A stretch of DNA of 64,000 nucleotides from Chloroflexota bacterium (GTDB lineage: Bacteria; Chloroflexota; Anaerolineae; JAAEKA01): contig JAYELL010000076.1 in the NCBI GenBank assembly GCA_034717495.1, positions 1 through 64,000 of the forward strand, written 5' to 3'. A program made the position numbers and the translations under genes. Position 1 is the first letter of the stretch. Each line of letters begins with the position of its first letter. Shown in pieces: positions 44,803 to 62,573 of the stretch. A model generated the notes under the pieces. That model was not told where the DNA came from and made no database searches. It worked only from the letters and a program-made list of their open reading frames with translations.

Positions 44803-46782
44803 TCATAGTTCCGCTATGACCTCTCCGATCCCGGCAGTATCGTAACCGCCAAGCGCCTCTACCGTACCGGAAAACTCAGCGGAGCGAATCACTGCCATTA
44901 AGGGCTCCAGCAACTCGCTGTCATAGTACTCGGCGGGAATCACCAGGTCGTAGCGTTCGTTGAAGAGTGGTACGAAGCCCAGACGCAGGGCACTTGCCGC
45001 TGCCCGAATTCCCAATCCACAATCTGCGGTGCCCGATTGAACGGCAGCTGCCACCGCCAGGTGTGTAAATTCAGGCCGTTCGTAGCCCTGAATCTGCCGT
45101 CGTTTGATACCCAATTGCTTCAACTGGTAGTCCAATAGCACGCGGGTACCCGCGCCCCTTTGACGATTGACGAAGCTCACATCGGCGCGCGCCAGATCTG
45201 CAAGACTGGTGATCTCCTTGGGGTTTTCGGGTTGCACGATCAATCCCTGAACACGCCCAACGAAGCGCAACAGAATCATCTGTCGAGTGGGCAGAAGTTC
45301 GCGAATGAACTTGATGTTGTATTCCCCTGTCTCTGCGTCGAGCAGATGAGAGCCGGCAAAGTGCGCTTCGTTCCGTTGAAGCGCCAACAGGCCTCCGTAA
45401 CTGCCCACGTTTGAAGAGGCCAGTGTCAGCTCAGGACGGTTCCGTCGAAGTTGATCGGCAAGAACGTCAAGGGTCAAGTCGTGACTGCCGATGGAGACGA
45501 TGGTATTGCGAATCGACTCAGGTGAACGCAACAGCTCGACAGAAACCTGGCTGCCTGCATGTTCTCCTTCACTGAAGCGAGGAATCTGCACGATTCCATC
45601 GGCCCGTACCAGCGACATAATGACTCCTGCCCCGCGCTTCAACGGGGTTGCCACCAGACGATCGCCGACCCGCCCTACGGTGACACGCAAGAATTCATCC
45701 TCTCCCAAAGGAGAGTGGACCTTCTGAGTGAGAGATGCTCTGACGATAGGGCGCTCGGGCGGCATCAAACCCTGCCACCGATAGACCAGCGGCTTGACAA
45801 AAAGTTCGAAGGTCATGGCAGCCGATACCGGAAACCCAGGAATCCCGATCACCGGTTTGCCCCCGGCGATCCCCAGAACCACGGGATGTCCCGGTCGAAT
45901 CGCCGCGCCGTGGACCAATACCTGTCCCAGGTCGTCGACTACGCGGGCGGTGAAGTCCTCCGAGCCCGCTGACGACCCGGCGTTTATTACAACGATATCG
46001 TGATCGGACAGGGCCACCTCGACTGCAGACCGTATCCGATCGAATTCGTCAGGCACGGACGCCAGGCGACTGACCTGGCAGCCCCATTCCTGCGCCATGG
46101 CGCCAAGAACCAATGAATTGTACTCAACAATATCGCCCGGCTGCAAAGATGTTTCCCAGCCAGGTTCTCCGGGTGTCACCAACTCACTGCCGGTTGGTAT
46201 CACCGCTACCCGGGGCTGGCAACGCACCGCAAGATGGGTGTGCCCACATCCAACCGCGGCGCCCAGGTCCTGGGGCCGAAGATAATGGTTGGAGGGTAAC
46301 ACAAGCTGGGTTGCGACGATGTCCTCACCCATGGCGCGCACATGTCGCCAGGGCGGCGTGGCAGCCATGATCTCTATATGGGTTGAGATGTCAGGATCTG
46401 CCGTTTGCTCCCCCGGCAGCAACTGCGTATCCTCGATCATGATCACCGCGTCAGTCCCTGCCGGGATTGGATCACCGGTGTCCACGTAAAACGCCTGCTG
46501 GTTCAGGGCAAGACGAAGCGGAGAGGTCTCGGTAGCGCCAGCGGTGTCTTCGGCCCGTACCGCATAGCCATCCATGGCAGACGCATGGTAATGGGGAGAG
46601 GATATGCGGGCCCATACAGGCGCTGCAGTTACCCGGCCGGCACAATCGCCAACGGGCAATGTTTCACTGGGAAGCGTGCCCAACGCTTCAGCCTGCAGCA
46701 AGGCGGCATACCAGTGTTCGATGGCCTCTTCCAGACCAATATCGTGTAGATAGGGAGTCTCTCGTCGCATCATAGGTTTCAA
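44803..46782 (-). CDS. MoeA-PBP fusion (molybdopterin molybdenumtransferase-like plus substrate-binding domain)
   Basis: A 659-residue protein. TTG46782 overlaps the upstream MoeA stop, and ATGs nearby (46773, 46770) are alternative starts. Residues about 15-410 are MoeA-like: SAMDGYAVRAED, DTGDPIPAGTDAVIMIED, VGCGHTHLAV, VINAGSSAGSEDFT and GIPGFPVSAAMTF. Residues about 430-640 form a PBP-like domain (VSIGSHDLTLDVLADQLRR, ASSNVGSYGGLLAL, RQRGAGTRVLLDY) as in the PF12727 family, often linked to ModE or MoeA in archaea and Chloroflexota. It probably takes part in molybdenum cofactor synthesis, with the added domain sensing or binding an oxyanion or precursor. That last role is inferred. Confidence 0.88.
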   Translation of the reverse strand: MKPMMRRETPYLHDIGLEEAIEHWYAALLQAEALGTLPSETLPVGDCAGRVTAAPVWARISSPHYHASAMDGYAVRAEDTAGATETSPLRLALNQQAFYVDTGDPIPAGTDAVIMIEDTQLLPGEQTADPDISTHIEIMAATPPWRHVRAMGEDIVATQLVLPSNHYLRPQDLGAAVGCGHTHLAVRCQPRVAVIPTGSELVTPGEPGWETSLQPGDIVEYNSLVLGAMAQEWGCQVSRLASVPDEFDRIRSAVEVALSDHDIVVINAGSSAGSEDFTARVVDDLGQVLVHGAAIRPGHPVVLGIAGGKPVIGIPGFPVSAAMTFELFVKPLVYRWQGLMPPERPIVRASLTQKVHSPLGEDEFLRVTVGRVGDRLVATPLKRGAGVIMSLVRADGIVQIPRFSEGEHAGSQVSVELLRSPESIRNTIVSIGSHDLTLDVLADQLRRNRPELTLASSNVGSYGGLLALQRNEAHFAGSHLLDAETGEYNIKFIRELLPTRQMILLRFVGRVQGLIVQPENPKEITSLADLARADVSFVNRQRGAGTRVLLDYQLKQLGIKRRQIQGYERPEFTHLAVAAAVQSGTADCGLGIRAAASALRLGFVPLFNERYDLVIPAEYYDSELLEPLMAVIRSAEFSGTVEALGGYDTAGIGEVIAEL

Positions 46783-48068
46783 TGTAGCTCAACCGTCACC
46801 AATTGACCATCAGCAATGCCATTGCTGTCCAATGGAACTTTGACGGCGCCATCAGACCGGATAAGTGTATAGATTAAATTGCTCTTGCCAAAAACGGGTA
46901 TCGCCCACAATTCACCGGCGCGCGATTCCAGGCGCACCTGTACGTAGTCCTCCCGCCCGCTAACACTGGCGATGTTGCGGGACAGTCGAGCGGTCACCCG
47001 TGTTTTGACGACAGCATCGGCGCCCAACAGGCTACGGATCGCCGGGTTGACGAACAGGTCGAAAATCACCATCGCACTGACCGGATTGCCCGGCAATCCG
47101 AACACCGGCTTGCCGGCGGCGAGAGCCAGAATCGTTGGCTTACCAGGTCGTACACTCACTCCGTGAATCAGGATTCCTGGTGACCCCAGACCTTCGATGA
47201 CCTGGGCTGTCATATCCCGAAAGCTCACGGAACTGCCTGCCGACATCACCAGGATATCTGCGTCGGCCAGTGCCCTCGCTGCAGCACTCTGCAACGCCTG
47301 AAAGTCATCCGGAATAATCGAATATGTAATCGGAATCCCTCCGGCACGGTGAGCCAGCGCGGCCAGGGTGTAGGAATTGATATCACGAACCTGGCCGGGC
47401 CCAGGCTCCTGGTCCGGCGACACTACCTCGTCTCCCTGGGAGAGAATGGCAACCGTTGGCCGCACAGCCACCGTTATCTCTGTGATCCCCAACGCGAGCA
47501 GTCCCCCAATGTCCTGCGGGCGGATTTGATGGCCTTTTACCAGGACAGGCTGGCCCTGGCGGACATCCTCACCGATCTGGATGACATTCTGACCGACAGC
47601 TACTGGCTTCAATACCTCAATCGAGTGGGGATGAAACTCGCTTTCAGGGTCAACTCTCTCTGATTGGCTGCCGGCGCTGGTGTCCTCCTGGCGGATACGC
47701 TGGGTATCTTCGACCATCACCACGGCATCGGAGTCCGAGGCAATCATGCCGCCGGTGTGGACAAGAACGGCCTGTCCCTCATCCAGAGAGATCTGGGGCG
47801 GCTGTCCCATAGATACTTCACCAACTACCTCCAGATAGGCCGGCAAGCTGGCAGTAGCCCCATAGGTATCGATAGCAGCCACAGCAAAACCATCGACGGT
47901 GGATCGCGGAAAGGCTGGCAAATCATGAGGGGAAAAGATATCCTCCGCAAGAATGCGGTCCAGGCTCAGTAGCACGGAGAGTCGTTCGGTTTTCACCGAA
48001 GACCTGAACCTTTCGCTGAATATTCGCCAGGCCTCAGCCGGTGTTTGTACGTCGAATAGCTCGGTCAT
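46779..48068 (-). CDS. moeA: MoeA, molybdopterin molybdenumtransferase
   Basis: A 429-residue protein with the full MoeA fold. Motifs: the N-terminal STVDGFAVAAIDT, VHTGGMIASDSDAVVMVEDT, the MPT-binding core SAGSSVSFRDMT, and FGLPGNPVSAMVIFD. The C-terminal domain IV (residues 350-429) is intact. It inserts molybdate (or tungstate) into adenylylated molybdopterin in the cytosol. Its last bases overlap the start of the MoeA-PBP gene, and it lies 8 bp after the DUF2723 gene. No other Moco genes are in the window. Confidence 0.9.
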   Translation of the reverse strand: MTELFDVQTPAEAWRIFSERFRSSVKTERLSVLLSLDRILAEDIFSPHDLPAFPRSTVDGFAVAAIDTYGATASLPAYLEVVGEVSMGQPPQISLDEGQAVLVHTGGMIASDSDAVVMVEDTQRIRQEDTSAGSQSERVDPESEFHPHSIEVLKPVAVGQNVIQIGEDVRQGQPVLVKGHQIRPQDIGGLLALGITEITVAVRPTVAILSQGDEVVSPDQEPGPGQVRDINSYTLAALAHRAGGIPITYSIIPDDFQALQSAAARALADADILVMSAGSSVSFRDMTAQVIEGLGSPGILIHGVSVRPGKPTILALAAGKPVFGLPGNPVSAMVIFDLFVNPAIRSLLGADAVVKTRVTARLSRNIASVSGREDYVQVRLESRAGELWAIPVFGKSNLIYTLIRSDGAVKVPLDSNGIADGQLVTVELH

Positions 48069-48076
48069 AACCGTCC

Positions 48077-50620
48077 TCAGTTGATCTCGATTTCTGCCAA
48101 TTCAATAGCATCATTGGGCAAGCGCACGCGGGCATCATCATAGGCAGGCAGCCGGTTGAGCGTCAGGGCATCGTAGATCCCGACAACAATTCGATAGGGA
48201 CCCGGTCTGAGTTCAGAGAACAATGGCACTTCGTAAGAATCAGTGAGCAATTCCCCCTGTTCCCATACCGAGGTAGGATACTGTCCGTCAAAAGGTTGAA
48301 CGTCCTGTTGAGCCACAATGCGTCCATTTGAATCCAACACGTGGATAAACACCTTGTAATCCTGCCCGATGGGTCCTGCGGCTTGCCAGCGAACGCTGAC
48401 CTCCAGATCTCCCACCAGTGCCTCTTCGGTAACAACCTGCTTTCCATGGACAGAGCTCACACGATTGCCATCCACGCCATAGCCAATGAGCAGAATGGAA
48501 TCATCGAAATTTGCGTACCCTGGCAACGTGGCCAATTCAAGGGTGGATGACTTGGGGGCCTGCCCGCCGACACTGCCGGGTAGGATTGCAGCGCCAACGG
48601 GCTGCAGCTCGTCGCCCATTAACTCATACATGCCGGCATACACCCGAAATGGACCAGGGGGTGCATCTGCCGGCAACGAAACAACATGGCGATCGACAAT
48701 GATTTCGCCCGGTTTCCACAACCTTGAAGGGTAGTAATCGCCTCCGATCAGTTTATCACTCTGAGCGATCTTCGAACCATCGGGAAGTGTCAAATGAACG
48801 AAACTTGAAAGATCGGTCGCAATAGGTTGCACGGGCTGCCAAAACAAGGTTACTGCGGTATCCTGCCCTGGCGCGGGGTGTAACGTTTCCACATCGTAAC
48901 CGGTCAGCCGAATCTGATCACCGATGGCGATATCTACCGGCTGGGCATCGCCCCGCAGGGTGTTTAGACCCTCGACCCGCGTCAGTCCGGCAGAGTCGTT
49001 CTGGCCCAATTGCGCCTTGGCCTCCAAACCGGGCATGGGCTTGACCAAAAATACCGGTCGCTCATTGGCCAGAGCAATCTCCAACACCTGTCCTACATTG
49101 TCCCAGTTCTCACCGGGCAACATACCGGGAAAAAGGCCCGCAAGATCGGGGCGCATGCCCTCGACCTGCTGAAGATACCAGAGCGGCATCATCTCGTCCC
49201 GGTCGTTGGTCACCAAAATCGAGTCGGCAGGCGGATCGGCTTCGATCAGATTGGCCCACCAACGCTCCGGCAGGGTATGCCCGCTGCGATCAACCTGATC
49301 CGCATGGGATATGAACAACAGCAAGGGCAGAGCAGCCAACGGAATCAGGGTCAAAACGCTGGCAGCGGTGGCCCAGGCCGGTCGCCAGCGCGCAACGAGC
49401 TGCGCGATCTCAGCGGCAATAAACGCGCCTGCGACGGCAATCCATCCCGAGGCAATCAGGTAGGATGGGATATAATACGCGGCAATGTCGTCGATGGTGT
49501 AGAAAAGGTTGAATGCCGTCAGGGCAATGAAGCCACCACCCGTCAGCCACAGCAAGCGGGTTTCCCGATTGATGATCAGATAGAGCACACCCAGGAGCGC
49601 CAGGCCAACCCCAACCGGTGTCAGTTCAGCCATGAAACGCTGGATCAGTGTGAACGGATCGGAGACAGCAGTTGCCGGTCCCTGGAGTTGGCTGGCGAAA
49701 CTGTAACCCAGTGCGTAGCCTGCCAGCCCTTTGGGCGATCTATTTATCAGATCCACGAAGTGATCCGGCCTGAGCTCTACCAACAGATAAGGACTTTGCT
49801 TAACCCGCAGAGGAACATACAGGTAGAGCAGAAGAGGTGCCAGGGTCAAAACAGTCAACGGAACCAACCACCGGGGACGGCGCACGCGATAGCCATCCTG
49901 GCGCCAGACGAACACAAAGAGCACCGGTATCAGGAGCAGCGTCGTTCTGTGGTGGGCAAGACTCAAGCCCAGAACCAGAGCAAGAACCATCAGGGAAAGG
50001 GAAGGGTGCGTTCGGAACTCAGGCTGATCCTCCTGAGCGTAGTGCTTTTCGATTTCGAGCCCTTTTTGCCAGCGCAACGCCAGTCCGAAGATCAGCGCAA
50101 TAAAGGCAGCGTGTAACGAATACACCTCTGTCACCAGGGCACTGCTCCAGAAAGTGGGAGTGAAGGCGAAGGCAAGGGCAGCAAGAAAAGCAGCAATTCG
50201 CTGGGCAATTGGCGGTGCCTGCCGGACACCGAGCTCTACCAACCCATGGGCGAACAGATAGGTCAGTCCCACCGCCACCGCGGCAAAGATCACTGATAGC
50301 AGGTTCATCGCCCTGGCGGGTGTTGCCAGATTCAGGATATCCAGGAGGTGGGTCCATATCCAGCCCAGGATCATGTAAAGGGGATATCCCGTTGGATGGG
50401 GCAGGCCGGCCAACCAGGCCGAAAACTGGAATTCGCCACCATCTCCGAAGAGTAGGCCAGGCGCAGAACCCAGCCAGTACACAGTGCCGGCGATCAGGCC
50501 AGCGATCGCTGCGATTAGCAGATCGACCACTGCCAGGAGTTGCGGTCTGGCCATTGAACCCCCGGAGAGGTCTGTCGCCGCTGTGGTGGCCTCCAATGCC
50601 ATCTGCCCCTCTGCCTCCAT
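48077..50620 (-). CDS. DUF2723-type GT-C-like membrane protein with two C-terminal beta modules
   Basis: An 847-residue polytopic protein. ATG50620 overlaps the preceding stop (TAATG). The first outside loop reads LFGDGGEFQFSAWLAGLPHPTGYPLYMILG, the signature of DUF2723 (PF11028), a GT-C relative. About ten more hydrophobic helices follow up to about residue 440, then a soluble half. The C-terminus carries two copies of a ~110-residue module (about 575-690 and 725-835), marked by SSFVHLTLPDGS...LWKPGEIIVDRH and KVFIHVLDSNG...VWEQGELLTDSY. The same module ends four neighbouring proteins. A membrane glycosyltransferase using a lipid-linked sugar is likely; donor and acceptor are unknown. Confidence 0.8.
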   Translation of the reverse strand: MEAEGQMALEATTAATDLSGGSMARPQLLAVVDLLIAAIAGLIAGTVYWLGSAPGLLFGDGGEFQFSAWLAGLPHPTGYPLYMILGWIWTHLLDILNLATPARAMNLLSVIFAAVAVGLTYLFAHGLVELGVRQAPPIAQRIAAFLAALAFAFTPTFWSSALVTEVYSLHAAFIALIFGLALRWQKGLEIEKHYAQEDQPEFRTHPSLSLMVLALVLGLSLAHHRTTLLLIPVLFVFVWRQDGYRVRRPRWLVPLTVLTLAPLLLYLYVPLRVKQSPYLLVELRPDHFVDLINRSPKGLAGYALGYSFASQLQGPATAVSDPFTLIQRFMAELTPVGVGLALLGVLYLIINRETRLLWLTGGGFIALTAFNLFYTIDDIAAYYIPSYLIASGWIAVAGAFIAAEIAQLVARWRPAWATAASVLTLIPLAALPLLLFISHADQVDRSGHTLPERWWANLIEADPPADSILVTNDRDEMMPLWYLQQVEGMRPDLAGLFPGMLPGENWDNVGQVLEIALANERPVFLVKPMPGLEAKAQLGQNDSAGLTRVEGLNTLRGDAQPVDIAIGDQIRLTGYDVETLHPAPGQDTAVTLFWQPVQPIATDLSSFVHLTLPDGSKIAQSDKLIGGDYYPSRLWKPGEIIVDRHVVSLPADAPPGPFRVYAGMYELMGDELQPVGAAILPGSVGGQAPKSSTLELATLPGYANFDDSILLIGYGVDGNRVSSVHGKQVVTEEALVGDLEVSVRWQAAGPIGQDYKVFIHVLDSNGRIVAQQDVQPFDGQYPTSVWEQGELLTDSYEVPLFSELRPGPYRIVVGIYDALTLNRLPAYDDARVRLPNDAIELAEIEIN

Positions 50621-53460
50621 TACCGGGGGTCCTCCAGGCGCAACCAGTCGAAGGCCACCGACAGAGGCCGTCGATCGGCAGCGACACGCAGGTACGCGCC
50701 ATCAGGCCCGATAGCCTCGGCCGCAGAGCCGGGAGATGCACCCTTGACACCGACCAGGCCATGTCCATAGCCGGGGGTCTGGCGCAGGTCTACCTGGCTG
50801 CCAAGGTCCGCCAGGGCGGCGACCGCCCGATCGGTCAGGAAGCGGCTTCCGTCATCTCGCACTGCAGCTACGACGATCACCCCTTCTTCTATCTCTTCAA
50901 TAAAATCCGCCATCGTCTCCGCTTCGAATTCGTTGGCCCAGGTATCGAAGCCGCGAACGGCCAGCAGTTCACCGGAGTCAGGATCGATGACACTCAGGTT
51001 GTAACCTCGCCGACCCGATGAAGCATCCTGTTCAACCCCCTCAGGGTCCGACACTGTGATGAAGGCAATGTCCTGAGCGGTGCCTCCGCTATTGATCTCG
51101 ATGTCCACCGGGCTCTGAACGCCGCTGCTGCCGATCATGCCCTGACCCTGTAAAACATCGGCTGGTTGCGCGCTTTCGATGAAAGAAAAGTTCAAGCTGT
51201 TCAACCCATCGACGGCGGCCTCGGCAGGCACATCGAAGGCCAATTCCTGCCAACCGGGAGTGACTGCCCGGGTCCCGAGGTCAACGCCGTTGAACCGAAC
51301 ATTCAAAGACTGCGGGGCAGCGTCTGGATAGGAGAAAGGCTGGACCCGCAGGACCAGTCGCAGCGGACGGGTTTCGACCAGCCGGAGGGGAAGGTACAGA
51401 TCAGCCTCTCTCCCCATCGCCCAGACCCCGGTCGCTCCCGATATATCCTGCTCATCAGCACTCCAGCCAACACCCCGGTACGCGCTGGTGTCGGCTGTTC
51501 CGAAATCGAGACCAAAGGGGAAGGGAACCAACGGTTGCCTGACCCGAAAAACCTGGACCCCATCGGCCTGCCAGAGCGGTTCAGGATCGACCGGTAACAC
51601 ATCCAGCGCATAGTCCCGGGCCGCCTGCCAGGTATCGGCATAGGGATATCGACCCGGCACCGGCGGATTGACTACCAGATAGTCCACGTTCCAAAGAGCG
51701 ACCAGATCATCGGCGCTTTGACGCGCGCGCTGGTCAGTGATCTCGTCGGGCTGTTGGTACATCTCCAGGCCCGCGATTGCCTGCAGCAGCGGCTGGCGTT
51801 CGAAATACTCAAACTTAAAAGGAGGATTGCGAACGGCATTGCCGCTGATGATCGGTCTTTTGTGATCGGACTGATACCACTGAACCCGGGTATCTTCTGA
51901 ACCAAAGACCCGGAAGCCGTTTCGCCAGCCCATTGGCAACTGCATGATTGTGCCGTTGCCCTCGCTGCCGGCAAGTTCCTGGTAGACCGCAGGGATGCGA
52001 GAGTCGGTCACCGGCATTGGCCACGCCAGGTGCTCAAACACAATTGCGGCGCCTGCCAGCAAAACCATGGCGACGGCCAACAGGCGACGGCCCGACGATC
52101 CTTCGATCTCAGGCAGAAGCAAACGAGAACCCCCGCGGCCCGAACTCAGGCTCAGGAGACGACCCACAATCCACGATACGCCGTAACCTGCCAGCACGGC
52201 AAGAGCCAGCATCAGCGGGATACTGAAACGATTGGGGGCCCGATATCCCTTGATGAAAGGCAAATAGTGGGTGATGATAAAAGGCAAAGGCACCGTGGTG
52301 TCGAGCCCATCGAGGTGAAATAACGACTCGCCATGGATCTGCAGCAACGGGCCAAGGGCAAACAAAGCGCTCAACAAGGCCAGAATGACCCAGGGCAGCG
52401 TTTTGCGCCGCCCCGCGAGAGCGCCAATAGTGGCCAGCGCCAGGGTCGCATAGCCCAGAAAGAGGGTGTTTATATCGCTGAACCGTCCCTCTCCCGCTTC
52501 CACTGCTCGCAGTTCCGCCGTCCAGTCTCCGCCCCACAACGGGTGAAGATCCGTGGGTGTCACCAGACCGGCCAGATCACTGCTTAGTTTTTGCGCATCA
52601 CCCCAACCCTCCAGCGCATAGTCGCCACTCAATCCTTCTCCCACGGTTGGAACGAGCAAGACTGCACTCACCAGCGCTGCAACCGCGGCGATACCAATGA
52701 CCCCGACCAAGAGCTGGCGAGTTGAAGGTCCGGTGGGATCAGCCCGCGAACCACGCCGGAACAGGGCGAACAAAACCAGTGGCAGGGCAATGGCTGCCAG
52801 TAACACGCCATAGAGCATATCTGTCAGCAGTGCCAGCCCTCCGAATAGCCCTGCCATGATGGCATCGTGCCGGCGAGCGCGATCCAGGGTTTTGATGAGA
52901 TAGAGGACAAAGAAGGGCACCCATTGGGTATGGTAGATATTGTAATGGCCAAGCGATAGATAAATGGCCCGGTTGGAGGCAAAGGCAAATACCAACCCGG
53001 CAATCAGTGCCGCCCCATCGCGCGTAAACGTCCAATCGCGGCCTTGGTGACTCGCTGGCTGATCGACGCCGCTGATTCCACGCCTCAGCAGGTAGCGGAC
53101 CAGCAAGAACGTACCATAGCCGCTGAGTACCGTGGCAAGCAAGTTGATCAAGTTGCTTGCAAGTGGTACCCCGGCCACCAGTTGCAGGGGCAGCGCCAGC
53201 ACGGTGCCCAGCAGATTGTAGGTATATAGGATCAGGTCAAGGCCCAGCGGGAAAAAGATCAGATCGGTGTGAAGAGGCGAGGAAATCTGATCGATAAGGG
53301 AGAACTTGAAATACCACATGCTCCAAAGGAACGTATACTCGTCGAAGGCCCAGGTATCGGTCCCCGGCACATGGGTGGTAAGTTGGGTGACCAATGGAAA
53401 GCTAAGACCAATGGCCAGCACCAACAAAAGAAAGAGCACCAAAAGGTGCGTGAATCGCAT
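50620..53460 (-). CDS. polytopic GT-C/YfhO-like membrane protein with C-terminal ILEI/FAM3-like domain
   Basis: A 946-residue protein with its own promoter. Residues about 1-430 are membrane helices, with an acidic first loop (GTDTWAFDEYTFLWSMWYF). A second soluble part (about 460-700) includes YQELAGSEGNGTIMQLPMGWRN. Residues about 700-810 look like a jelly-roll (NVRFNGVDLGTRAVTPGW). Residues about 819-918 (bases 50707-51006) match the ILEI/FAM3 'GG' domain: GRRGYNLSVIDPDSGELL, FDTW, then DFIEEIEEGVIVVAAVRDDG, ALADLGS and GLVGVKG. In animals this domain occurs in FAM3 cytokine-like proteins and in the POMGnT1 stem. Here it probably lies outside the cell and may bind a glycan. The enzymatic role of the membrane part is inferred. 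Confidence 0.8.
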   Translation of the reverse strand: MRFTHLLVLFLLLVLAIGLSFPLVTQLTTHVPGTDTWAFDEYTFLWSMWYFKFSLIDQISSPLHTDLIFFPLGLDLILYTYNLLGTVLALPLQLVAGVPLASNLINLLATVLSGYGTFLLVRYLLRRGISGVDQPASHQGRDWTFTRDGAALIAGLVFAFASNRAIYLSLGHYNIYHTQWVPFFVLYLIKTLDRARRHDAIMAGLFGGLALLTDMLYGVLLAAIALPLVLFALFRRGSRADPTGPSTRQLLVGVIGIAAVAALVSAVLLVPTVGEGLSGDYALEGWGDAQKLSSDLAGLVTPTDLHPLWGGDWTAELRAVEAGEGRFSDINTLFLGYATLALATIGALAGRRKTLPWVILALLSALFALGPLLQIHGESLFHLDGLDTTVPLPFIITHYLPFIKGYRAPNRFSIPLMLALAVLAGYGVSWIVGRLLSLSSGRGGSRLLLPEIEGSSGRRLLAVAMVLLAGAAIVFEHLAWPMPVTDSRIPAVYQELAGSEGNGTIMQLPMGWRNGFRVFGSEDTRVQWYQSDHKRPIISGNAVRNPPFKFEYFERQPLLQAIAGLEMYQQPDEITDQRARQSADDLVALWNVDYLVVNPPVPGRYPYADTWQAARDYALDVLPVDPEPLWQADGVQVFRVRQPLVPFPFGLDFGTADTSAYRGVGWSADEQDISGATGVWAMGREADLYLPLRLVETRPLRLVLRVQPFSYPDAAPQSLNVRFNGVDLGTRAVTPGWQELAFDVPAEAAVDGLNSLNFSFIESAQPADVLQGQGMIGSSGVQSPVDIEINSGGTAQDIAFITVSDPEGVEQDASSGRRGYNLSVIDPDSGELLAVRGFDTWANEFEAETMADFIEEIEEGVIVVAAVRDDGSRFLTDRAVAALADLGSQVDLRQTPGYGHGLVGVKGASPGSAAEAIGPDGAYLRVAADRRPLSVAFDWLRLEDPR

Positions 53461-53499
53461 AGCGTTTTTTTGCCTCGTTAGCCTGTCAACAGTGAGACA

Positions 53500-53528
53500 A
53501 TGTTACCATAGGCAGTACCAATGAGCAA
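53500..53528 (-). promoter_or_regulatory. promoter of the ILEI-like/DUF2723/MoeA operon
   Basis: On the minus strand, TTGCTC (53528-53523), a 17-bp spacer and TAACAT (53505-53500) with TGG before the -10 box. It is 40 bp from ATG53460, so the 53460-44803 gene series is probably transcribed separately from the genes upstream. Confidence 0.62.
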
Positions 53529-53571
53529 CTGTCGGCGGCAAAGCGATGTCAACGGGACCATCTTGCGCAAC

Positions 53572-55530
53572 TCACCGGTATTCTATGCTGCCAATCACGA
53601 AGGCTGGACGATCCTCGAAGCCGGTGGAACCGGAGGCTTCAGGAAGCCATGGTCCTGCAAATGGCCGAACGCTGACTTCCACTTGATAGTCGCCTGATCC
53701 CCCCGGCTCGGGCACCAAAAGGTAATCGTCGGCGATCGGTTCGTCCGGTTGCCAATGATCGGTGCTATAACGGCCGTCGGCCGGCGCGTGAGTCCACTCG
53801 GCGGCCAGCCAGCCATCGCTGTGAACTAATCGCACCGATGGGCGCAGATCAGCGGAGATAGCAGAAGTGGCCTGCCAGACAAGTCGGACCGCAGCCGGTT
53901 GCCCGGCCTCGATCGGCTCGCCAGGCAACTGGGTATCCACCAGTTCGAATGTTCCTCCAAACAAGGCCAGGGGTTGTCGCACCGGTGCCTGATGGGACGA
54001 GAGAGGTTGTGGTGCAGCAAAAGCAGGTCTGATCACACCCAACAGTGCCGCCAGGCCAAAGAGAGCCATGAACAGGGTGAATACGCCGACGAGTTTGAGG
54101 TCACCAACCCGCCAGGCACCTGCCTGATCCTCACCGCCATAGACCCAATCCAGCAGGCCCACCACGCCCACGCCAACCCAGACGGCGATGGCTGAAAGCG
54201 CGGGCCAGAGCAGGCGAGCCTGATCGGTGCCAAGGGCTATAGCGCTGTAACGCACCAGAGTGACAAATATCAACGCCGGTGCAGCAGCCAGAAGAATCAA
54301 CAATCCCAATTGTCGCTTCCGGGAAATCAGCTCAGATCGGTCGTATGCGCCGCTCGATGGCATTTCCGCGGCCCCTGCATCGCTGACCCCGCTATCCCCC
54401 CTTTCTCCATCTTTGCGACCCTCCGCTTCGCCAATTCGTTGATCTGCTGATCCCCCTTTTACCATCTGCTCCAGATACCGCACGATCCCAACCAGCAGGG
54501 CTGCTCCAAAAAAGGCTGCCGCCGCATAGGCCCAGGCTGGCAGCTGGATCTGTCCAGCTCCCCCGAAGCGACCCCAGAAGGTGCGGTGGAGTCCCCACAA
54601 CAACCAGCGTATGTCTCCAGGAGCCAGCGGTGCCAGTCGTTGGTCGATAGTCATGCGCACCAACTCCCACCCGAAAGGATCCCCGTAGAGACGCCAATTG
54701 CGCAAGTACCAGGGAGACGCGAGCAACGCGCCCAGCCCGAAGACCAACAGCAAATGTCCCAGCAGCGCCTTCCACGACGATCGGGACCTTTCGAGCCACC
54801 AGGTTGCCAGAATCGCCAGGCCTGCCAGTGGCCAGATAGCCAGCGTTCCGACCTTGGAGAGGGCCCCCAATCCTAAAACGATGCCCAGTAAAAGGCTGCG
54901 CCTGGTCGATAGCCCCCGGCGCACCGTTTGCGCCGACAAAAGCATTGCCAGCGCTGCAAAGGCGCCGGCGGCGTTGTCATTGTTGATGGCGCTGCTGATA
55001 AATAGGAATCCCGGCAGTCCAGCCAGAAATGCCGCGGCCAACAACCCGATTGCCTCTCGTTCGGGGAACACCTCCCGCCCCAGGGCCCAGGTGGCCCAGA
55101 GAGTTACTGCGCCAAAAACAATCGAGAGTCCCCGCGCCAGGTGCATGGCCAGTGGCCCTCTCTGCCACGGAAAATCCTCCAGCGTAGTGTGGACGAAAAA
55201 ATTAGGGGGCTTATCCGGCCCCAGCGGCACGGCGTCAGGATTTGAACGCAGGAAATCAAAATCCAACCCGGTCCAGCCGGTGAGTCCGCCTGCGATCGCG
55301 TGGTAGAGCGGCGGGTGCTTGCTCTGGGTTACCGTGGGGCCCTCCGCCAAACCGCGATTCACTCCGATGTAGCGCAGATACGCGTAATGATCCGCCTCGT
55401 CGGGAGCCTCAGCCAATGGCACAACCACCGAATAGGCCACGGCCAGGATCAGGTATATCAGCAGGATGATGAAAAAAACGTGCTTCGGCGACCGCTGATC
55501 ATTGAGAATTGACAATTGATTATTGGTCAT
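53572..55530 (-). CDS. GT39/DUF2142-like polytopic membrane protein
   Basis: A 652-residue protein. After a short polar N-terminus comes a first helix and an outside loop EAPDEADHYAYLRYI, where the DEADH acidic motif stands in the place of GT-C catalytic acids. Then come QSKHPPLYHAIAG, RGLSIVFGAVTLWATWALG and SSAINNDNAAGAFAALAML, as in DUF2142/ArnT-type proteins, with about eleven helices. The last ~110 residues are a diverged copy of the beta module shared by its neighbours (ADLRPSVRLVHSDGW...HWQPDEPIADDY). The start codon and first eight codons lie in an AT-rich repeat (55491-55541), so the true N-terminus is uncertain. It overlaps the upstream gene by 11 bp. Confidence 0.77.
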   Translation of the reverse strand: MTNNQLSILNDQRSPKHVFFIILLIYLILAVAYSVVVPLAEAPDEADHYAYLRYIGVNRGLAEGPTVTQSKHPPLYHAIAGGLTGWTGLDFDFLRSNPDAVPLGPDKPPNFFVHTTLEDFPWQRGPLAMHLARGLSIVFGAVTLWATWALGREVFPEREAIGLLAAAFLAGLPGFLFISSAINNDNAAGAFAALAMLLSAQTVRRGLSTRRSLLLGIVLGLGALSKVGTLAIWPLAGLAILATWWLERSRSSWKALLGHLLLVFGLGALLASPWYLRNWRLYGDPFGWELVRMTIDQRLAPLAPGDIRWLLWGLHRTFWGRFGGAGQIQLPAWAYAAAAFFGAALLVGIVRYLEQMVKGGSADQRIGEAEGRKDGERGDSGVSDAGAAEMPSSGAYDRSELISRKRQLGLLILLAAAPALIFVTLVRYSAIALGTDQARLLWPALSAIAVWVGVGVVGLLDWVYGGEDQAGAWRVGDLKLVGVFTLFMALFGLAALLGVIRPAFAAPQPLSSHQAPVRQPLALFGGTFELVDTQLPGEPIEAGQPAAVRLVWQATSAISADLRPSVRLVHSDGWLAAEWTHAPADGRYSTDHWQPDEPIADDYLLVPEPGGSGDYQVEVSVRPFAGPWLPEASGSTGFEDRPAFVIGSIEYR

Positions 55531-55541
55531 TGGTCATTAAC
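55491..55541. repeat. AT-rich attgacaattgattattggtc-type element spanning a gene junction
   Basis: A low-GC stretch of nested ttgac/attggtcatt units, unlike the surrounding ~60% GC coding DNA. It supplies the last codons and stop of the 761-residue gene (MTNDQ-stop) and the first codons of the 652-residue gene (MTNNQLSILN). A related string, agttgacaattggtaattt, occurs at 25601-25619. Confidence 0.6.
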
Positions 55542-57805
55542 AACCATTCAATGCTTCCCAGATCAACCCGATTGTCAGACGTGGCAGGGTCGGTCGTCAG
55601 GTTGCGCAAGGTTTCCGGTTGATACATCCCCGCCCGGAGGCCGTAGGTTCCCGGCGGCAGATCGGCGGGCAATGGAATGACGTGCCGGTCGACAATGATC
55701 TCACCCTGGCGCCAGCGGGTCGTTGGTGTGAAACCACCGACAGGACTCCCGTCGTCTTGCGCGATCACCTCGCCATGCTGCCCAAGCAGATGGACGAAGG
55801 CTGTGTAATCGACGGTAGTCTCCCGCAAAGCCAGCCAGTAGAGGGTCACTTCTGCCACACCCAGGTCAGGCATCGATTCTGCATCCGCAGCAATCAACGT
55901 GGCAACATCCTCCAGAGTCGCCTGCACCGGTTTCGGAGTCCAGGTCTTGCGGCCGATTCCCTGGCTGTTCAGTGTCAAAATCAGGGCTGCCAGGCCCACC
56001 AGAACACTGGTAACCAACAGCCCTCGTCGGGAACGGGCCTGCCACCACACCAGAGCCGCCCAGGCAACCACGGACAGCAGCGTTACGACAAGACCGGCTT
56101 TTCGAGCCGGTGTGCCGCCGTAGGAAACATGGACCTGATGGTTGCCGGCTGGCAGATCGAGTGTCACCAGCCCCAGTTCGCCCGTGGCAGCAAGCGGTAC
56201 CGGCTTGCCGCCAATCGAAGCTTGCCAGCCGGGTTGATAGAACTGGTGCAGGCGCAGTTTCATGGGTCCCGGCGTGGAAACCAGGGCAGTAAGGCTGTCG
56301 TAGGACAATTCCGTCAGATCAATGGTGGGCGCGGGCTGCAAAGCCGGGCCATCCGCCCCGCCTTCCAGCGACCGGCCCAGGGCCCAGCGCTGCTCGGTCA
56401 CACCGACGGGTAAAAACTCCCCTGTCCACGTGGCGCCAACCTGACCGGCATCAGCATCCTCGCGCCACATGCGATCCGGAAACCAAACGTCGGCTGCGCT
56501 CATCGATAGTGGTTCCAGTTGAAGGCCCGCGGTGGAAACCAGAATGGCAATCGGCGCCATGATGGCGACGATGATGACAGGGCGCACCTTGGGTAGAAGT
56601 GCTGGCAATGCTCCTGCGATTCCCATCAAACCCACTGCCTCCAGAAGCAGAAAGCGCCATGGGTATTGCAAATGCCCCAGAACCGGTGTCAATGGATTCC
56701 AGATCACGAGAGCTGCACCGGTGGTCATGAACATGGCAAAGGCTGTCAGCCCAACATGAAAGGCAGTGGATGGCCAGATTCCCGGCAGCCTTCGCTGCAC
56801 CGCGCGCAACAGCAACAAACCCAGACCGGTCACAAGCAGTGCCACCGCGAACCAGCTGAGCGGATACAGCCGGCCCAGGGTGTCGGTTGCGCCACGAAAA
56901 TAGGCCAGAGCGGGGCGCAGCAGGTCGACAACCGTCAAAAAGTGATTTCGGTAGCCCTCGGAAGCTCCCAGCCCCAGCCCCACCGACGAATTCTCCACCA
57001 GCACCGGCAGCCAGTAGACGGCGGTGATGCCGATCGCCAGGGCCAGCGAGAGCGCGGTGCCGGGCAGTCGCCGCCATCGTCCCGACCAACCTGCCATGGC
57101 CAGAAGGTGCACGCCAGCCACCAAAGCCATCATGAGGGCAGTCAGATTGTGGGTCAGCACCAATCCCGCCCATGCCAGTGTTCCCCAAAGCATGGCGGGC
57201 CATGGGTTATCCTCCAGAAAGGCCGCGGTGTATGCCCAAAGGATCAAAGGTGGAAAAATAAATGCGGCAAGTTCAGGCAACGCGCCGCGAAGATAAGCGT
57301 CAGCCAGGTGATAAGGAGCGTAGGTGTATACCACGGCAGCCAGAACACCGGCGGCAGCATTTCGGGCGGGCCAATTGCCAAAACGTTTGCTGCCGGCCTT
57401 CAGCAGATACCGCAGATAGGCGAAAGCTGCCAGGGCCGCCAGGACAAAGCTCGATGCGATCGTAAGCCTGGCCGCGGCGACCGGAGAGACTCCCAGCAGT
57501 GAAAGCAATGCCCCCGGAAAATAGCTCAGGGGAGAATAGTAGTTTAAAACTGCCTGCCCATAGCCGAAGCCGAAATCGGGAAATAGCCGGGGAAGGATGA
57601 TCCCATGTCGCCAGGCATCTGCCAGCGCGGCCGTGCGGTAAACGTGAAAACGACCGTCATCCGAAGCAAAAAAACCTGATCCCAGCAGTGGCAACAAGGC
57701 AGGAATCAGCAACAGAAGCAACAGTGCCCCGTAGGCCAGCGTCGCATTGTCCTCGAGCCAGCGCTGGATTCCTCTGGACTGCCGGGTCGACATCGTAGCA
57801 CTCAT
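55520..57805 (-). CDS. PTPS-related (PF10131-like) polytopic membrane protein with shared C-terminal module
   Basis: A 761-residue protein. The N-terminal half matches the '6-pyruvoyl-tetrahydropterin synthase related domain, membrane protein' family: DDGRFHVYRTAALADAW, FGYGQAVLNYYSPLSYFPG, VYTYAPYHLADAYLRGALPE and LVLTHNLTALMM. The family name is historical; these are GT-C/YfhO-like membrane proteins. After the helices comes LRLHQFYQPGWQASIGG, a YfhO-type beta segment, one more helix region, then the shared C-terminal module (YTAFVHLLGQHG, WRQGEIIVDRHVIPL, LRAGMYQ). It is a close paralogue of the 784-residue protein upstream. The last residues come from the repeat at 55491-55541. A role in surface glycan assembly is likely, with no known substrate. 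Confidence 0.8.
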   Translation of the reverse strand: MSATMSTRQSRGIQRWLEDNATLAYGALLLLLLIPALLPLLGSGFFASDDGRFHVYRTAALADAWRHGIILPRLFPDFGFGYGQAVLNYYSPLSYFPGALLSLLGVSPVAAARLTIASSFVLAALAAFAYLRYLLKAGSKRFGNWPARNAAAGVLAAVVYTYAPYHLADAYLRGALPELAAFIFPPLILWAYTAAFLEDNPWPAMLWGTLAWAGLVLTHNLTALMMALVAGVHLLAMAGWSGRWRRLPGTALSLALAIGITAVYWLPVLVENSSVGLGLGASEGYRNHFLTVVDLLRPALAYFRGATDTLGRLYPLSWFAVALLVTGLGLLLLRAVQRRLPGIWPSTAFHVGLTAFAMFMTTGAALVIWNPLTPVLGHLQYPWRFLLLEAVGLMGIAGALPALLPKVRPVIIVAIMAPIAILVSTAGLQLEPLSMSAADVWFPDRMWREDADAGQVGATWTGEFLPVGVTEQRWALGRSLEGGADGPALQPAPTIDLTELSYDSLTALVSTPGPMKLRLHQFYQPGWQASIGGKPVPLAATGELGLVTLDLPAGNHQVHVSYGGTPARKAGLVVTLLSVVAWAALVWWQARSRRGLLVTSVLVGLAALILTLNSQGIGRKTWTPKPVQATLEDVATLIAADAESMPDLGVAEVTLYWLALRETTVDYTAFVHLLGQHGEVIAQDDGSPVGGFTPTTRWRQGEIIVDRHVIPLPADLPPGTYGLRAGMYQPETLRNLTTDPATSDNRVDLGSIEWLLMTNDQ

Positions 57806-57814
57806 GGGATCAAC

Positions 57815-57820
57815 ATTATA
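57815..57820 (-). promoter_or_regulatory. possible -10 box before the 761-residue gene
   Basis: A perfect TATAAT on the minus strand (57820-57815), 10 bp upstream of ATG57805. The -35 region (TGGTCG at 17 bp) is poor. If used, the transcript would be almost leaderless. Confidence 0.35.
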
Positions 57821-57858
57821 CCCGACCGGAAACCGTTCGACCAGTCACATTATGTATT

Positions 57859-60213
57859 CTATTCGAGGTCGAACTCAACCAGGAGAACCTGGTCGTCCGT
57901 TGGAACGCCATCGGGACCAAGTATCTTAAGCCGGTTGCCCGTCACCGGATCGTAAAGGCCAGCACGTAGCTGATAGCGTCCTGGCGGCGGCTGGCCCAGC
58001 CATTCCAGCTCGTGGATGTCGATCACCACCTCTCCCTGCTGCCAACGCGTTGTCGGCGAGAAGAAATAACCTGGCTCGCCGTCGTGTTGTGCCCAGAGCT
58101 TGCCACTTGCATCCAACAAATGTACGAATACCTTGTAGTCGGCGGCAGGACGCTGCAAGGCCAGCCAGGTCAGGGTCACAGCGCCATCACCGTCCGATTG
58201 CAATTTTTCGGGCGGTGCATGGTAGCCGATAAGCCGGGCTTCATCGCCAAAGTTGACATTCTGAGGCACTGGCACCACGCCGGCTGGTTCCTGTTGCCGC
58301 TGCGCCAGCACTAAACCACCGTACACCAGAAAGAGGATGAGCAGGCCAAGTACCCATCGCCAGCGACGCATCCAGAGAACACCGGCCAACCACAGGCCCC
58401 AGCCGATCGCAGTCAACACCCACCCCAGGCTACGCAGCGGGGTTGTGCCAAAGCGAAAGACCAGCTCGTGGTCGCCGGCGGGCAACGAGACACTGACCAA
58501 AGCCAGAGGGCCGGCTGGCTCAGCGAGAATGCTTTCCCCGTCCAGCAATACCTGCCAGCCGGGGAAATAGAACTGATGCAGCTGCATGGTCCACGGCTGG
58601 CCGGCCGATACCACAAATCGTTGCTCCATGGGCGCTTGCCGGCCCGGAATCACCTGGACATCAAGCGGCGGTTGGCGTTTTTCGCTGGGGCCGGCCGAAA
58701 GAAAGAACTCGGAGCGTGGCACAGTCACCCATGCCGGCATGTATTCGAACATCCAGGCGCTTCCATGCTCCCTCAGCCAGAGTCCACGGCCGAAATCATA
58801 CTTGGCCATAGTTCGGCGGCTGACATTTTGGTTGGTTACCGGTTCCCGCGACGCAGGATAGGTAGAAGACTCCCAGGGTATCGCCGGCAGTGCAGCGGAG
58901 ATGAGTAACAGACCGATTGCCGTTACCAGAATGGCGCCAGCCAGAAGACCTGTCCCCGGGCGGGATTCTGGGCTCTTGCCCCGTGATCTATCTGTTTTGG
59001 CCCGGCACGACGCGGGCACGCCGGGTGCGAACCCGGCATAACCAGTCACCACGGCCAGCGCAAGAGCCGCGATGGCCTGCCAACGCCAGGGAAATTGCAG
59101 CAGAATCAGGCCAGGCACATGCTGCCAGACCGGCCGCGACAGGCTGGACTGCATGAAGAGAGCGAGCACCGCCACCACCGCAAACAAGGGCAATGCCAGG
59201 CGAACGGTGCGATCCAGATGTCGCCATCGCCAAATGCCCACGGCCAGACCTGAGAGCGCAGCCACAAGTTGTGCCAGACCCAGGGAATGCAGCGTCTGAA
59301 CGCCCTGTGACACGGTGTAGCGATGAATCCAGGATTGGTCGATCAACAGTGGGGGCCGGACCAGAGTTTTCGCCCACTGTTCGAAATCGAGCTCGACGTT
59401 GCCAGCCCAGATGGCCGGCGATTCCAGGATGGCGGGCAACCAGAACATGGCGCTCATCAGGGCACCCAGGAGGGCCATGACAAAGACAGCTCCCAGCGTG
59501 TGCCAGCGGCCGGTGCGATCGCTGCCCTCGACAAACAGGAGAAACAGCGTCCATGAAATCAATACAGGCGCGATGAGAATCAGGCTGAGATTGTGGGTCA
59601 AGGCCAATCCTGCCAGGGAAAGGCTTCCCCATAGGACCGGCACAAGTTTCTTCCCGCCATCCGCGCGGGCAATGCGCAGAATCGCCAGCAGCAGCAGCGG
59701 AAACCAGACAAAGGCCAGATGCTCAGCCAACGCACCGCGCGTCCAGGCATCCGCCAGGTGGTAGGGTGCCCAGGTGTAAGCTACCGCAGCGATGGCGCCC
59801 CCGATCGTCCCGAGAAATTCCCGGGCGAACAGAAACATGGCCAGGGCCGCCAACACCAGGCCGATGGCCAGGGATAACTCAAGGGTGGTCACAAACCCGG
59901 CGCCGAGATAGTGGAAGAGCAGGCCTGCATAGTAACTCAGCGGGGCATAGAAGTTGAGGACGGGAAACCCGTAGGCGAATCCCTCATCGGCCAGCCAGCG
60001 GGCACCCATGTTTCCCGATCGCAACGCCAGGTCCAGGTTGAAAAGGCGAAACAGATGGTGCATACCGTCGTCCATCTGTTGCAGTCCCGGCTGCCAAAGT
60101 GGGCGAAAGGCGGGGATCAACAGAAGAAGAACCAGAACCGGCAACAGCCATTGCGTCAACCTTGCGGCCCGTCGGTCTCTCTTCGGCGCGTCAGGCGTTC
60201 CCCGGGAGGTCAT
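57859..60213 (-). CDS. PTPS-related (PF10131-like) polytopic membrane protein with shared C-terminal module
   Basis: A 784-residue paralogue of the protein at 55520-57805. Matching segments: DDGMHHLFRLFNLDLALRSG, FAYGFPVLNFYAPLSYYAG, AYTWAPYHLADAWTRGALAE and LALTHNLSLILIA, then MQLHQFYFPGWQVLLDGE, an extra helix pair, and the C-terminal module (YKVFVHLLDASGK, WQQGEVVIDIHELEW, LRAGLYDPVTGNRL). ATG60213 overlaps the stop of the upstream gene (ATGA). It is probably a GT-C-type or YfhO-like transferase in the cytoplasmic membrane with its soluble part outside. The acceptor and donor cannot be predicted. Confidence 0.8.
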   Translation of the reverse strand: MTSRGTPDAPKRDRRAARLTQWLLPVLVLLLLIPAFRPLWQPGLQQMDDGMHHLFRLFNLDLALRSGNMGARWLADEGFAYGFPVLNFYAPLSYYAGLLFHYLGAGFVTTLELSLAIGLVLAALAMFLFAREFLGTIGGAIAAVAYTWAPYHLADAWTRGALAEHLAFVWFPLLLLAILRIARADGGKKLVPVLWGSLSLAGLALTHNLSLILIAPVLISWTLFLLFVEGSDRTGRWHTLGAVFVMALLGALMSAMFWLPAILESPAIWAGNVELDFEQWAKTLVRPPLLIDQSWIHRYTVSQGVQTLHSLGLAQLVAALSGLAVGIWRWRHLDRTVRLALPLFAVVAVLALFMQSSLSRPVWQHVPGLILLQFPWRWQAIAALALAVVTGYAGFAPGVPASCRAKTDRSRGKSPESRPGTGLLAGAILVTAIGLLLISAALPAIPWESSTYPASREPVTNQNVSRRTMAKYDFGRGLWLREHGSAWMFEYMPAWVTVPRSEFFLSAGPSEKRQPPLDVQVIPGRQAPMEQRFVVSAGQPWTMQLHQFYFPGWQVLLDGESILAEPAGPLALVSVSLPAGDHELVFRFGTTPLRSLGWVLTAIGWGLWLAGVLWMRRWRWVLGLLILFLVYGGLVLAQRQQEPAGVVPVPQNVNFGDEARLIGYHAPPEKLQSDGDGAVTLTWLALQRPAADYKVFVHLLDASGKLWAQHDGEPGYFFSPTTRWQQGEVVIDIHELEWLGQPPPGRYQLRAGLYDPVTGNRLKILGPDGVPTDDQVLLVEFDLE

Positions 60214-62573
60214 GGCGTCTCGCGTGGCAGCACTTCGAAATGCCGTAACACTGCGACATCGCTGCCAGCTTCGCCGTTCATCAGAACCGGCAACCTTCGA
60301 CCATTTTCGGGATCGTAGAGCAGAACGGCCAGTTTGAACGTGCCGAATGGCAGGTCCTCCGGCAGGGTGATACTGAAGCGATCCAGCACCCGCTCACCCG
60401 GCTCCCAGGTCGGCAGTGGACGGAAACCACCGCCGGGCCGGCGATCGATCCCGGCGATCAGCTCATCAGCCGGCCCGAGCACTTGCAGAGAAACGACCAG
60501 GTCCTCCGGGATTGTTTCCTGGGCCCGCCAGACCAGCTCCACCTGCATCGTGTCACCCGGTGCAACGGCATAGGCAGCCGGCTGTTGGCTCACATGGCGG
60601 ATGACTGCCTGATCGAGAGTAACCTGGCCCTCGAAGACGATGTCCTGAACACCAGTCTCCAGGAGGTCGCCCGGTTGCAGGTTGAATCTGCAAAGACGTA
60701 CCTGGGGACCCGTCCATTCACAGCCTTCGGGAAAACCAACGGTGCCCAACCATTGTTCGACAATGCTGTTGGGATCCCCCTCGGGCACCCGTTCAAGTAC
60801 CAGCCAGGCCCGGGAATATCCATCCAGATCGGAGAGGTGTTCGTTCTGCCAATCGGTCTCCCGGTCGGTCAGTGTCTCCCGGGTGAGATCCAGGCGCGGC
60901 GGACACCCCGCCCGACAGTAGTTCAACATGCCGACCACCGGACCGCTCAGGTTGTCGGTCCAGAGATCGGTTATCAACAGATCACCCGGCTGGCCTTCCT
61001 GTCGAACCCTCTCGGCAGCGCTGGCAAAGCCCATATCCGGTTGGTAGCGCTCATCAAGATAGCTGGCCTGCGCTGCCAGGACTGCGACGGGAAACCAGGC
61101 AAGAACAAGCATTCCCGAAACCAGGAGAGCACCTGCGCGGCGCTGTCGTTTCGATCTCACCACAGAGATCAGCCACAGCAGGCTCAATACAGAGCCAGCC
61201 AGGGCAGGCAGCAGGGCCCTCCAGTCGATGCGCACCGACCCACCGGTGCGATCCACGATCCAGGCCGGGTCAAGGATTTCCGGACGGGCGAAACGCAGCA
61301 TGGCCAGCGGTGGCCACATACGCAGGTTCCATGCCACGTCTGGCCCCGCGATATTGGCAGGAAGCAGGACCTCGCGTGCATATTCGCTGAACGGCACGAC
61401 GACGCCGACCGCTTGAATTGCGATACTCAGCGCAATCAGTGCCACGGCAATAGCCTTTCCTGCGGCGCCCAGACGTTTGTGAAGCCAACGCAGACCGTCC
61501 GGCATCGGCAGGCACAGCAAGGGAATCAACGGCAGCAACTGGCGTGGCCCGTATCCCCAATAGCCCCACCAGAACCGGCTGCCGCTGGCTGCTAAGACAT
61601 ACAACAGGCTGCCACCGATGGCAGCGAAAGTCAGCACAGGATGGCGACGCATGAAGGAAGGCGCGCCAAAAAATGCGATTAGCAGAACAGGCGCAAATGG
61701 CAACAGCCCCCACCCGGGACTGACCCAAAGCGCTATGAAGTTCACCAGGTTTGGTCCGCGCTGCAACACATCGGGGGCGCTTTCACCCACCACGGCAGCA
61801 GCCACTACCACGGCAGCCATCAACATCCACACGACCACAAACAGAATGAACCAGAGCCAACCTGCCGGCACCTGGTCGATCTGTCGCAGCCAGCGGTTGA
61901 CATTCGTCAACCGCGAGGAGGGATGGCTATGACCGTAGCGACTCAATAGCACTACCAGGGTCAGACCGGCCCAGAAGGGAAGAAACGCCAGCAACGTACC
62001 CTTGACGGCAATACTGGCAAAAAAGGAGACCAGCCCCAGGATCAGAATCGCCGGGTGACCCCCACGGTAGAAGCGAGCCGAGGCAAAAAAGCTGAACAGT
62101 AATAAAAAGGCCGCCAGCGGTTCCCGGAAGAGATAATGGCTGTAGGGCCATGCCAGCGTGCCCAGGCCATACGCCAGGCTGCTTACAGCGCCCAACGCCG
62201 GGGAAGCGCCCAAATCCGTCAGAAGGAGGTATAACAGGCCAGCCGTCAACGCCGTGACCAGCATGGTTAACAGCACCGACGATTGAAAGCTGCCGAGTCG
62301 CGGGATAAGCGCTGAAAGCGCGTAGAATGGGGATAAAAGCACTGAATAGAGCCATCCGTGGCGTTGAACACTGCCCAGATCGCCGTCCAGTGCGGCTTGA
62401 GTGCCCTTCAGGAAGAACCACTCGTCGGGGTTGTGGGGGATCCCGCTGTTGGTCAACAGGTAGACGAAAGCCAGAAAGGCGGTGATTGCCATCGCCGTCG
62501 CCAGCAACAGAGTCACTGCTGGTCTCGCCGTCGATGTCTGGCCTGGCGGGCTTTCCGTCTTTTGATCGTTCAT
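60210..62573 (-). CDS. GT39-like polytopic membrane protein with shared C-terminal module
   Basis: A 787-residue protein. The first outside loop has GIPHNPDEWFFLKGTQAALDG, with the DE pair expected of GT-C enzymes, then HGWLYSVLLSPFYAL and YLFREPLAAFLLLFSFF. About eleven helices follow, then a soluble domain from about residue 500 with two Cys-containing loops (NYCRAGCPPRLDL). The last 120 residues are the module shared with its downstream neighbours (VSLQVLGPADEL, TWEPGERVLDRFSITL, LAVLLYDPENGRRLPV). It is the first gene of a run of four overlapping or closely spaced genes (62573 to 53572). RBS and promoter lie just upstream. Confidence 0.8.
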   Translation of the reverse strand: MNDQKTESPPGQTSTARPAVTLLLATAMAITAFLAFVYLLTNSGIPHNPDEWFFLKGTQAALDGDLGSVQRHGWLYSVLLSPFYALSALIPRLGSFQSSVLLTMLVTALTAGLLYLLLTDLGASPALGAVSSLAYGLGTLAWPYSHYLFREPLAAFLLLFSFFASARFYRGGHPAILILGLVSFFASIAVKGTLLAFLPFWAGLTLVVLLSRYGHSHPSSRLTNVNRWLRQIDQVPAGWLWFILFVVVWMLMAAVVVAAAVVGESAPDVLQRGPNLVNFIALWVSPGWGLLPFAPVLLIAFFGAPSFMRRHPVLTFAAIGGSLLYVLAASGSRFWWGYWGYGPRQLLPLIPLLCLPMPDGLRWLHKRLGAAGKAIAVALIALSIAIQAVGVVVPFSEYAREVLLPANIAGPDVAWNLRMWPPLAMLRFARPEILDPAWIVDRTGGSVRIDWRALLPALAGSVLSLLWLISVVRSKRQRRAGALLVSGMLVLAWFPVAVLAAQASYLDERYQPDMGFASAAERVRQEGQPGDLLITDLWTDNLSGPVVGMLNYCRAGCPPRLDLTRETLTDRETDWQNEHLSDLDGYSRAWLVLERVPEGDPNSIVEQWLGTVGFPEGCEWTGPQVRLCRFNLQPGDLLETGVQDIVFEGQVTLDQAVIRHVSQQPAAYAVAPGDTMQVELVWRAQETIPEDLVVSLQVLGPADELIAGIDRRPGGGFRPLPTWEPGERVLDRFSITLPEDLPFGTFKLAVLLYDPENGRRLPVLMNGEAGSDVAVLRHFEVLPRETP

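Follow-up and report, generated by a model that had tools for sequence, protein, structure and literature searches.

An ILEI/FAM3-family domain inserted in a polytopic GT-C-type membrane protein is widespread in a Chloroflexota class

FAM3 proteins are signaling factors, and POMGnT1 is a single-pass protein whose stem domain lies N-terminal to its catalytic part. Guo et al. (2006, as cited in PMC10276149) described the GG (ILEI/FAM3) domain in FAM3, POMGnT1, TMEM2, and phage gp35. POMGnT1 contacts beta-linked GlcNAc through R129, D179, and R207, and GlcNAc is also bound by FAM3C, FAM3A, and Caenorhabditis elegans Fam3L2; no binding is seen with C. elegans Fam3L1, in which the last two residues of this triad are missing (PMC9802357). 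In streptococcal phage Tal proteins, a carbohydrate-binding module resembling the POMGnT1 stem has been modeled, with the R and the D kept (PMC9437275). Both the occurrence of the GG/ILEI domain outside animals and the existence of transferases carrying an attached sugar-binding module, POMGnT1 itself being an example, are thus already known.

We analyzed a 64,000-nucleotide stretch of DNA from a Chloroflexota bacterium of the class Anaerolineae (the whole stretch is called the window here), in which a first-pass annotation had described a FAM3/ILEI domain fused to a GT-C-like membrane protein, here 946 aa long. Profile, sequence, and structure searches all bore this out. Pfam PF15711 (ILEI) matched residues 818 to 889 (window 50794-51009, minus strand) with an E value of 1.4e-15 and a score of 58 bits, well over the cutoff of 27, and was the sole Pfam family recognized in the protein; NCBIfam named no family anywhere in it. 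Searching the PDB with the single sequence returned the POMGnT1 stem (8.7e-10, residues 778 to 891), FAM3C (9.8e-8), FAM3A (2.9e-6), FAM3B (1.1e-4), and, weakly, TMEM2 ("cell surface hyaluronidase"). With a profile made from 82 bacterial relatives, the best match was TMEM2 (3.6e-21), and POMGnT1 (1e-19), FAM3B (2e-16), and FAM3C (6e-15) were also found; all 82 family domains matched PF15711 when taken singly. The AlphaFold2 (AF2) model of the domain (pLDDT 95.3, pTM 0.90) has the beta-beta-alpha fold of FAM3, and its 21 Foldseek matches at E≤0.001 were exclusively TMEM2, POMGnT1, or FAM3A/B/C, with TM scores of 0.63 to 0.72, the next match reaching only E=0.33. Because PF15711 matches and the fold is that of FAM3, the original observation stands. 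The span first given, residues 819 to 918, is right at its end, but the true start lies about 40 residues earlier, at about residue 778; similarly, the domain does lie at 50707-51006, where it is read from the minus strand, and in full it reaches 51129 (Table 1).

Table 1. Features of the ILEI protein gene and its neighbors in the window
Feature	Position in window	Strand	Basis
Gene for GT-C + jelly roll + ILEI protein, 946 aa	50620..53460	minus	Open frame; whole-length alignment of relatives
GT-C membrane region, residues 1-478	52027..53460	minus	Full-length model, structural matches, hydropathy
D40-E41, candidate catalytic acidic pair, first outer loop	53338..53343	minus	Conservation in 51 relatives
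Alpha/beta extracytoplasmic domain, residues 480-640, with invariant W512-R513 and R544	51541..52023	minus	Model, conservation
Jelly-roll beta sandwich, residues 649-776	51133..51516	minus	Full-length model
ILEI/FAM3 (GG) domain, residues 778-918	50707..51129	minus	PF15711, PDB sequence matches, AF2, Foldseek
R818, aligned with POMGnT1 R129	51007..51009	minus	Sequence/profile alignment
D869, aligned with POMGnT1 D179	50854..50856	minus	Sequence/profile alignment
G897, at the place of POMGnT1 R207, Arg not kept	50770..50772	minus	Alignment
Last strand, residues 933-943, kept in ILEI-less relatives too	50632..50664	minus	Model, relatives
TMEM260-like (PF11028) transferase gene, adjoining	48077..50620	minus	PF11028 E=7.8e-34; downstream in 23/32 loci
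PMT_2-type GT-C gene, upstream	53572..55530	minus	PF13231 E=2.4e-9

The proposed fusion of this domain to a polytopic GT-C protein was also confirmed. The full-length model (pLDDT 92.1, pTM 0.88), from whose secondary structure the domain borders were read, has the polytopic GT-C membrane fold, its nearest Foldseek neighbors being AftD (the top match), STT3, AglB, ArnT, EmbB, and AftA (E values of 1.2e-9 to 1.9e-4), and it supports the placement of the ILEI domain after the last membrane helix. Acidic residues are expected in GT-C enzymes, and the first outer loop carries D40 in 51 of 51 relatives, followed at position 41 by E or D in all 51; D40-E41 would be the catalytic pair of the GT-C region. 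AftD, STT3/AglB, EmbB, and ArnT likewise have outer accessory domains C-terminal to a GT-C membrane fold, but they lack an ILEI domain and their sequence identity to the 946-aa protein is low (10 to 14%).

This succession of GT-C, alpha/beta, jelly-roll, and ILEI parts is not the whole-protein architecture of POMGnT1 or FAM3. The POMGnT1 stem (PDB 5GGF-5GGP) is homologous to the bacterial domain (TM up to 0.72-0.76), is also attached to a glycosyltransferase, and is tied to O-mannose biology, but single-pass POMGnT1 has another glycosyltransferase fold, its domain precedes rather than follows the catalytic part, and R207 has no Arg counterpart in the window copy. FAM3A/B/C (ILEI, PANDER) share the fold and the Pfam family, whereas they are secreted single-domain signaling factors and the domain described here is inserted in a putative enzyme. 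The GG domain of TMEM2/CEMIP, which gave the best profile match and the top Foldseek match, sits instead within a hyaluronan-processing ectodomain without a GT-C region. Phage tail fibers (T4-type gp35 and the Tal CBM_1 of TP-778L) also have a GG domain, and CBM_1 keeps the same R and D as the window copy, but these are virion adhesion proteins with no enzyme attached.

YfhO-type GT-C proteins of the same phylum (L016-L019, L022, and L023) also bear an ILEI domain in their outer part. They nevertheless belong to a separate GT-C family, in which the C-terminal part of YfhO and a membrane helix come after the ILEI domain, and the residues at the three triad positions are R-D-G in all six. In one of these loci (L022:3144-12430, minus strand), there is a 4-nt overlap between the YfhO-type gene, with its ILEI insert, and a gene for a 2064-aa protein with DUF11 and FG-GAP domains, a possible surface-protein acceptor.

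Three relatives (L063, L067, and L073) lack exactly the ILEI piece. Their sequences run from "SPQDVL" or "SPRDVL" nearly straight into RTLAAAVDYVKF, RTLAVAVDYVKF, or RPLAAAVDWIRW, and the ILEI domain is therefore an insert placed just before the final strand of the jelly roll. A quick, unrooted tree built from the transferase part requires two changes to account for the absences and places the ILEI-less relatives within a set in which both subfamilies otherwise always carry the domain. The simplest reading of these sequences is that the three relatives lost it.

Scanning species genomes turned up 158 relatives. The best 80 of the 158, as judged from their titles, came from Chloroflexota lineages (Anaerolineae, Caldilineae, Ardenticatenia, and others) plus one unplaced bacterium, and nearly all intact copies among them had the ILEI domain. 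Since ranking by score favors copies with ILEI, we also used unranked genome samples. The transferase part was present in 103 of 249 genomes of the class and PF15711 in 98 of the 249 (about 40%), mostly with two or more matches; an earlier phylum-wide search that found PF15711 in 11 of 400 says little about the class. The genome from which the window comes has two copies of the GT-C/ILEI protein, the second (L014) on contig C31. The fusion is thus widespread and kept across the class, and the label "metazoan" that had been given to the domain is too narrow, both because it is frequent in these bacteria and because it was previously known in phage tail fibers (PMC10276149, PMC9437275). We considered spread of the domain by phages or plasmids and rejected it: tblastn with two ILEI domain types matched no phage or plasmid record, and PHROG profiles gave weak tail-protein and tail-fiber matches and nothing stronger. 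At one locus (L094:2970-5950, plus strand), the GT-C/ILEI gene occupies two overlapping frames, which may mean that a frameshift error is present or that the gene is truly split.

The family falls into two subfamilies, which we call "near" (that of the window copy) and "far" (its sister). In the far subfamily, the triad is R-D-R in 31 of 35 copies and K-D-R in 3. R-D-R occurs in none of the 47 near copies, where R818 is kept in 36, position 869 is mostly G or E, and position 897 is mostly G. The window copy has R-D-G, and the other copy in its genome has R-D-R. Because of this difference, a sugar site like that of POMGnT1 is very plausible in the far subfamily and uncertain in the window copy. 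The suggestion that the latter has a POMGnT1-like site for glycan ends thus holds in part: R818 and D869 are kept, but the third residue is Gly 897, although the alignment may be off by one at this position, which falls in a loop, and the full R129/D179/R207 set is absent. The idea of "a module guiding a transferase" has good support as a description of architecture and less as a claim for a POMGnT1-type sugar site in the window copy.

The annotation also described the locus as containing TMTC-like proteins. An O-mannosyltransferase-like neighbor is indeed present, but the gene adjoining the ILEI gene, and sharing one base with its end, is TMEM260-like (PF11028), whereas the TMTC-like layout occurs in a protein encoded about 45 kb from it. 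In humans, TMEM260 acts as a protein O-mannosyltransferase on IPT domains and is classified as CAZy GT117 (PMC11292533); the literature searched contained no statement on the reaction of bacterial TMEM260 relatives. Of the 32 near-subfamily loci with 2 kb or more of sequence past the ILEI gene, 23 had a same-strand TMEM260-like gene downstream, and in 15 of these 23 its start lay within 500 nt of the ILEI gene's end. In the far subfamily, such a gene was found downstream in 1 of 19 loci and was nonadjacent there. The window genome has only four PF11028 genes in 5.0 Mb, which makes chance adjacency negligible by a rough binomial estimate that ignores shared descent. An opposite-strand gene intervenes in several loci; in the one tested (L050), it encodes a family-2 glycosyltransferase.

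Other large genes were observed in the window. Six in a row at 48077-62573 (minus strand), of which Pfam or modeling marks at least five as GT-C-like, encode the TMEM260-like protein, the ILEI protein, a PMT_2 protein, two PTPS_related proteins, and a 787-aa protein without a Pfam family. Next to this run (44803-48068, minus strand) is a tandem pair of MoeA paralogues, one with a fused periplasmic-binding-protein-like domain. The TMTC-like layout belongs to a 920-aa protein (2670-5432, plus strand) that combines PMT_2 with TPR repeats as in animal TMTC O-mannosyltransferases, and a 2538-aa protein consisting mostly of TPR repeats is encoded at 13297-20913 (plus strand).

We propose that the 946-aa protein is a polytopic GT-C glycosyltransferase that probably takes its sugar from a polyprenyl-phosphate donor, with transfer taking place outside the cytoplasmic membrane. 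The outer, C-terminal part of the protein is a stack of accessory domains in which the ILEI domain, inserted ahead of the last strand of the jelly roll, may serve to recognize the acceptor: the product of a partner enzyme, whether glycan or glycoprotein, would be kept close to the GT-C active site, in a manner comparable to the action of the POMGnT1 stem on O-mannosyl glycans. In the near subfamily, the likely partner enzyme is the adjoining TMEM260-like transferase. We consider this proposal probable, if by no means secure. It is supported by the ILEI fold seen by profile, sequence, and structure, by the GT-C fold with its invariant D40 and D/E41 and its top structural match to AftD, a GT-C transferase in its own right, by the class-wide fusion, by the TMEM260-like linkage (23/32 near versus 1/19 far), and by the far-subfamily R-D-R (31/35) taken together with sugar binding by FAM3C, FAM3A, and the POMGnT1 stem (PMC9802357). 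Counting against it are the missing third triad residue in the window copy and the absence of R-D-R from the near subfamily, the failure of Fam3L1, without two of the three residues, to bind GlcNAc (PMC9802357), and the three relatives that manage without the domain.

The weakness of the triad in the near subfamily leads to an alternative in which glycan binding belongs to the far subfamily only and the near-subfamily ILEI is a protein-docking module that couples the GT-C enzyme to the TMEM260-like or another protein. The triad is degraded in the TMEM260-linked subfamily and intact in the unlinked one, and docking to the neighbor is a serious rival in the former because binding of a partner enzyme, fukutin, is another property of the POMGnT1 stem (PMC8478517). 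However, R818 is kept in 36 of 47 near copies, the window copy retains both R and D, and the phage TP-778L domain, in which just R and D are kept, has been interpreted as sugar binding (PMC9437275); moreover, gene linkage is no proof of contact. On balance, we regard docking as unlikely, though well short of negligible. That the domain is placed as an insert in the jelly roll, and that three relatives do without it, could also mean that it is a ligand-free spacer stabilizing the outer domains, a view that we find rather improbable given how strongly a ligand-type triad is conserved in the far subfamily and how long the domain has been retained in both subfamilies. Finally, the window genome and most of the relatives were assembled from metagenomes, which raises the question of an artifact: a chance motif match, eukaryotic contamination, or a misassembled fusion. 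A chance match was rejected on the PF15711 E value, the matching of 82 of 82 relatives, and the Foldseek results, and contamination or a one-off fusion was rejected because the fusion, in a single frame, recurs across the class in many independent assemblies; with strong E values, a strong domain model, and a bacterial gene context besides, we give an artifact almost no credence.

Public annotation already applies the name ILEI to domains of some bacterial proteins, and the mere presence of the domain here would therefore not surprise a database curator. The literature searched contained nothing on ILEI domains in cellular bacteria, and we found no description there of an ILEI/GT-C fusion fixed in a bacterial class, of a split between triad-keeping and triad-losing subfamilies, or of linkage to TMEM260-like genes. 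A more speculative extension of acceptor recognition by the ILEI domain, which we hold to be doubtful, is that Chloroflexota carry out a form of protein O-mannosylation in which the TMEM260-like enzyme would start the glycan and the ILEI-bearing GT-C protein would recognize and extend it, a prokaryotic counterpart, and perhaps the source, of the animal pairing of an O-mannosyltransferase with a FAM3-type stem. Our results suggest that bacteria of this class use an ILEI domain to steer sugar addition outside the cell membrane. The class-wide attachment of a FAM3-family domain to a membrane glycosyltransferase points to recognition of glycans or glycoproteins as a general role of the family. The two paralogous subfamilies, one with the sugar triad and one without, constitute a natural experiment, and the tie between TMEM260-like genes and a second transferase provides a lead on the function of bacterial TMEM260 relatives.
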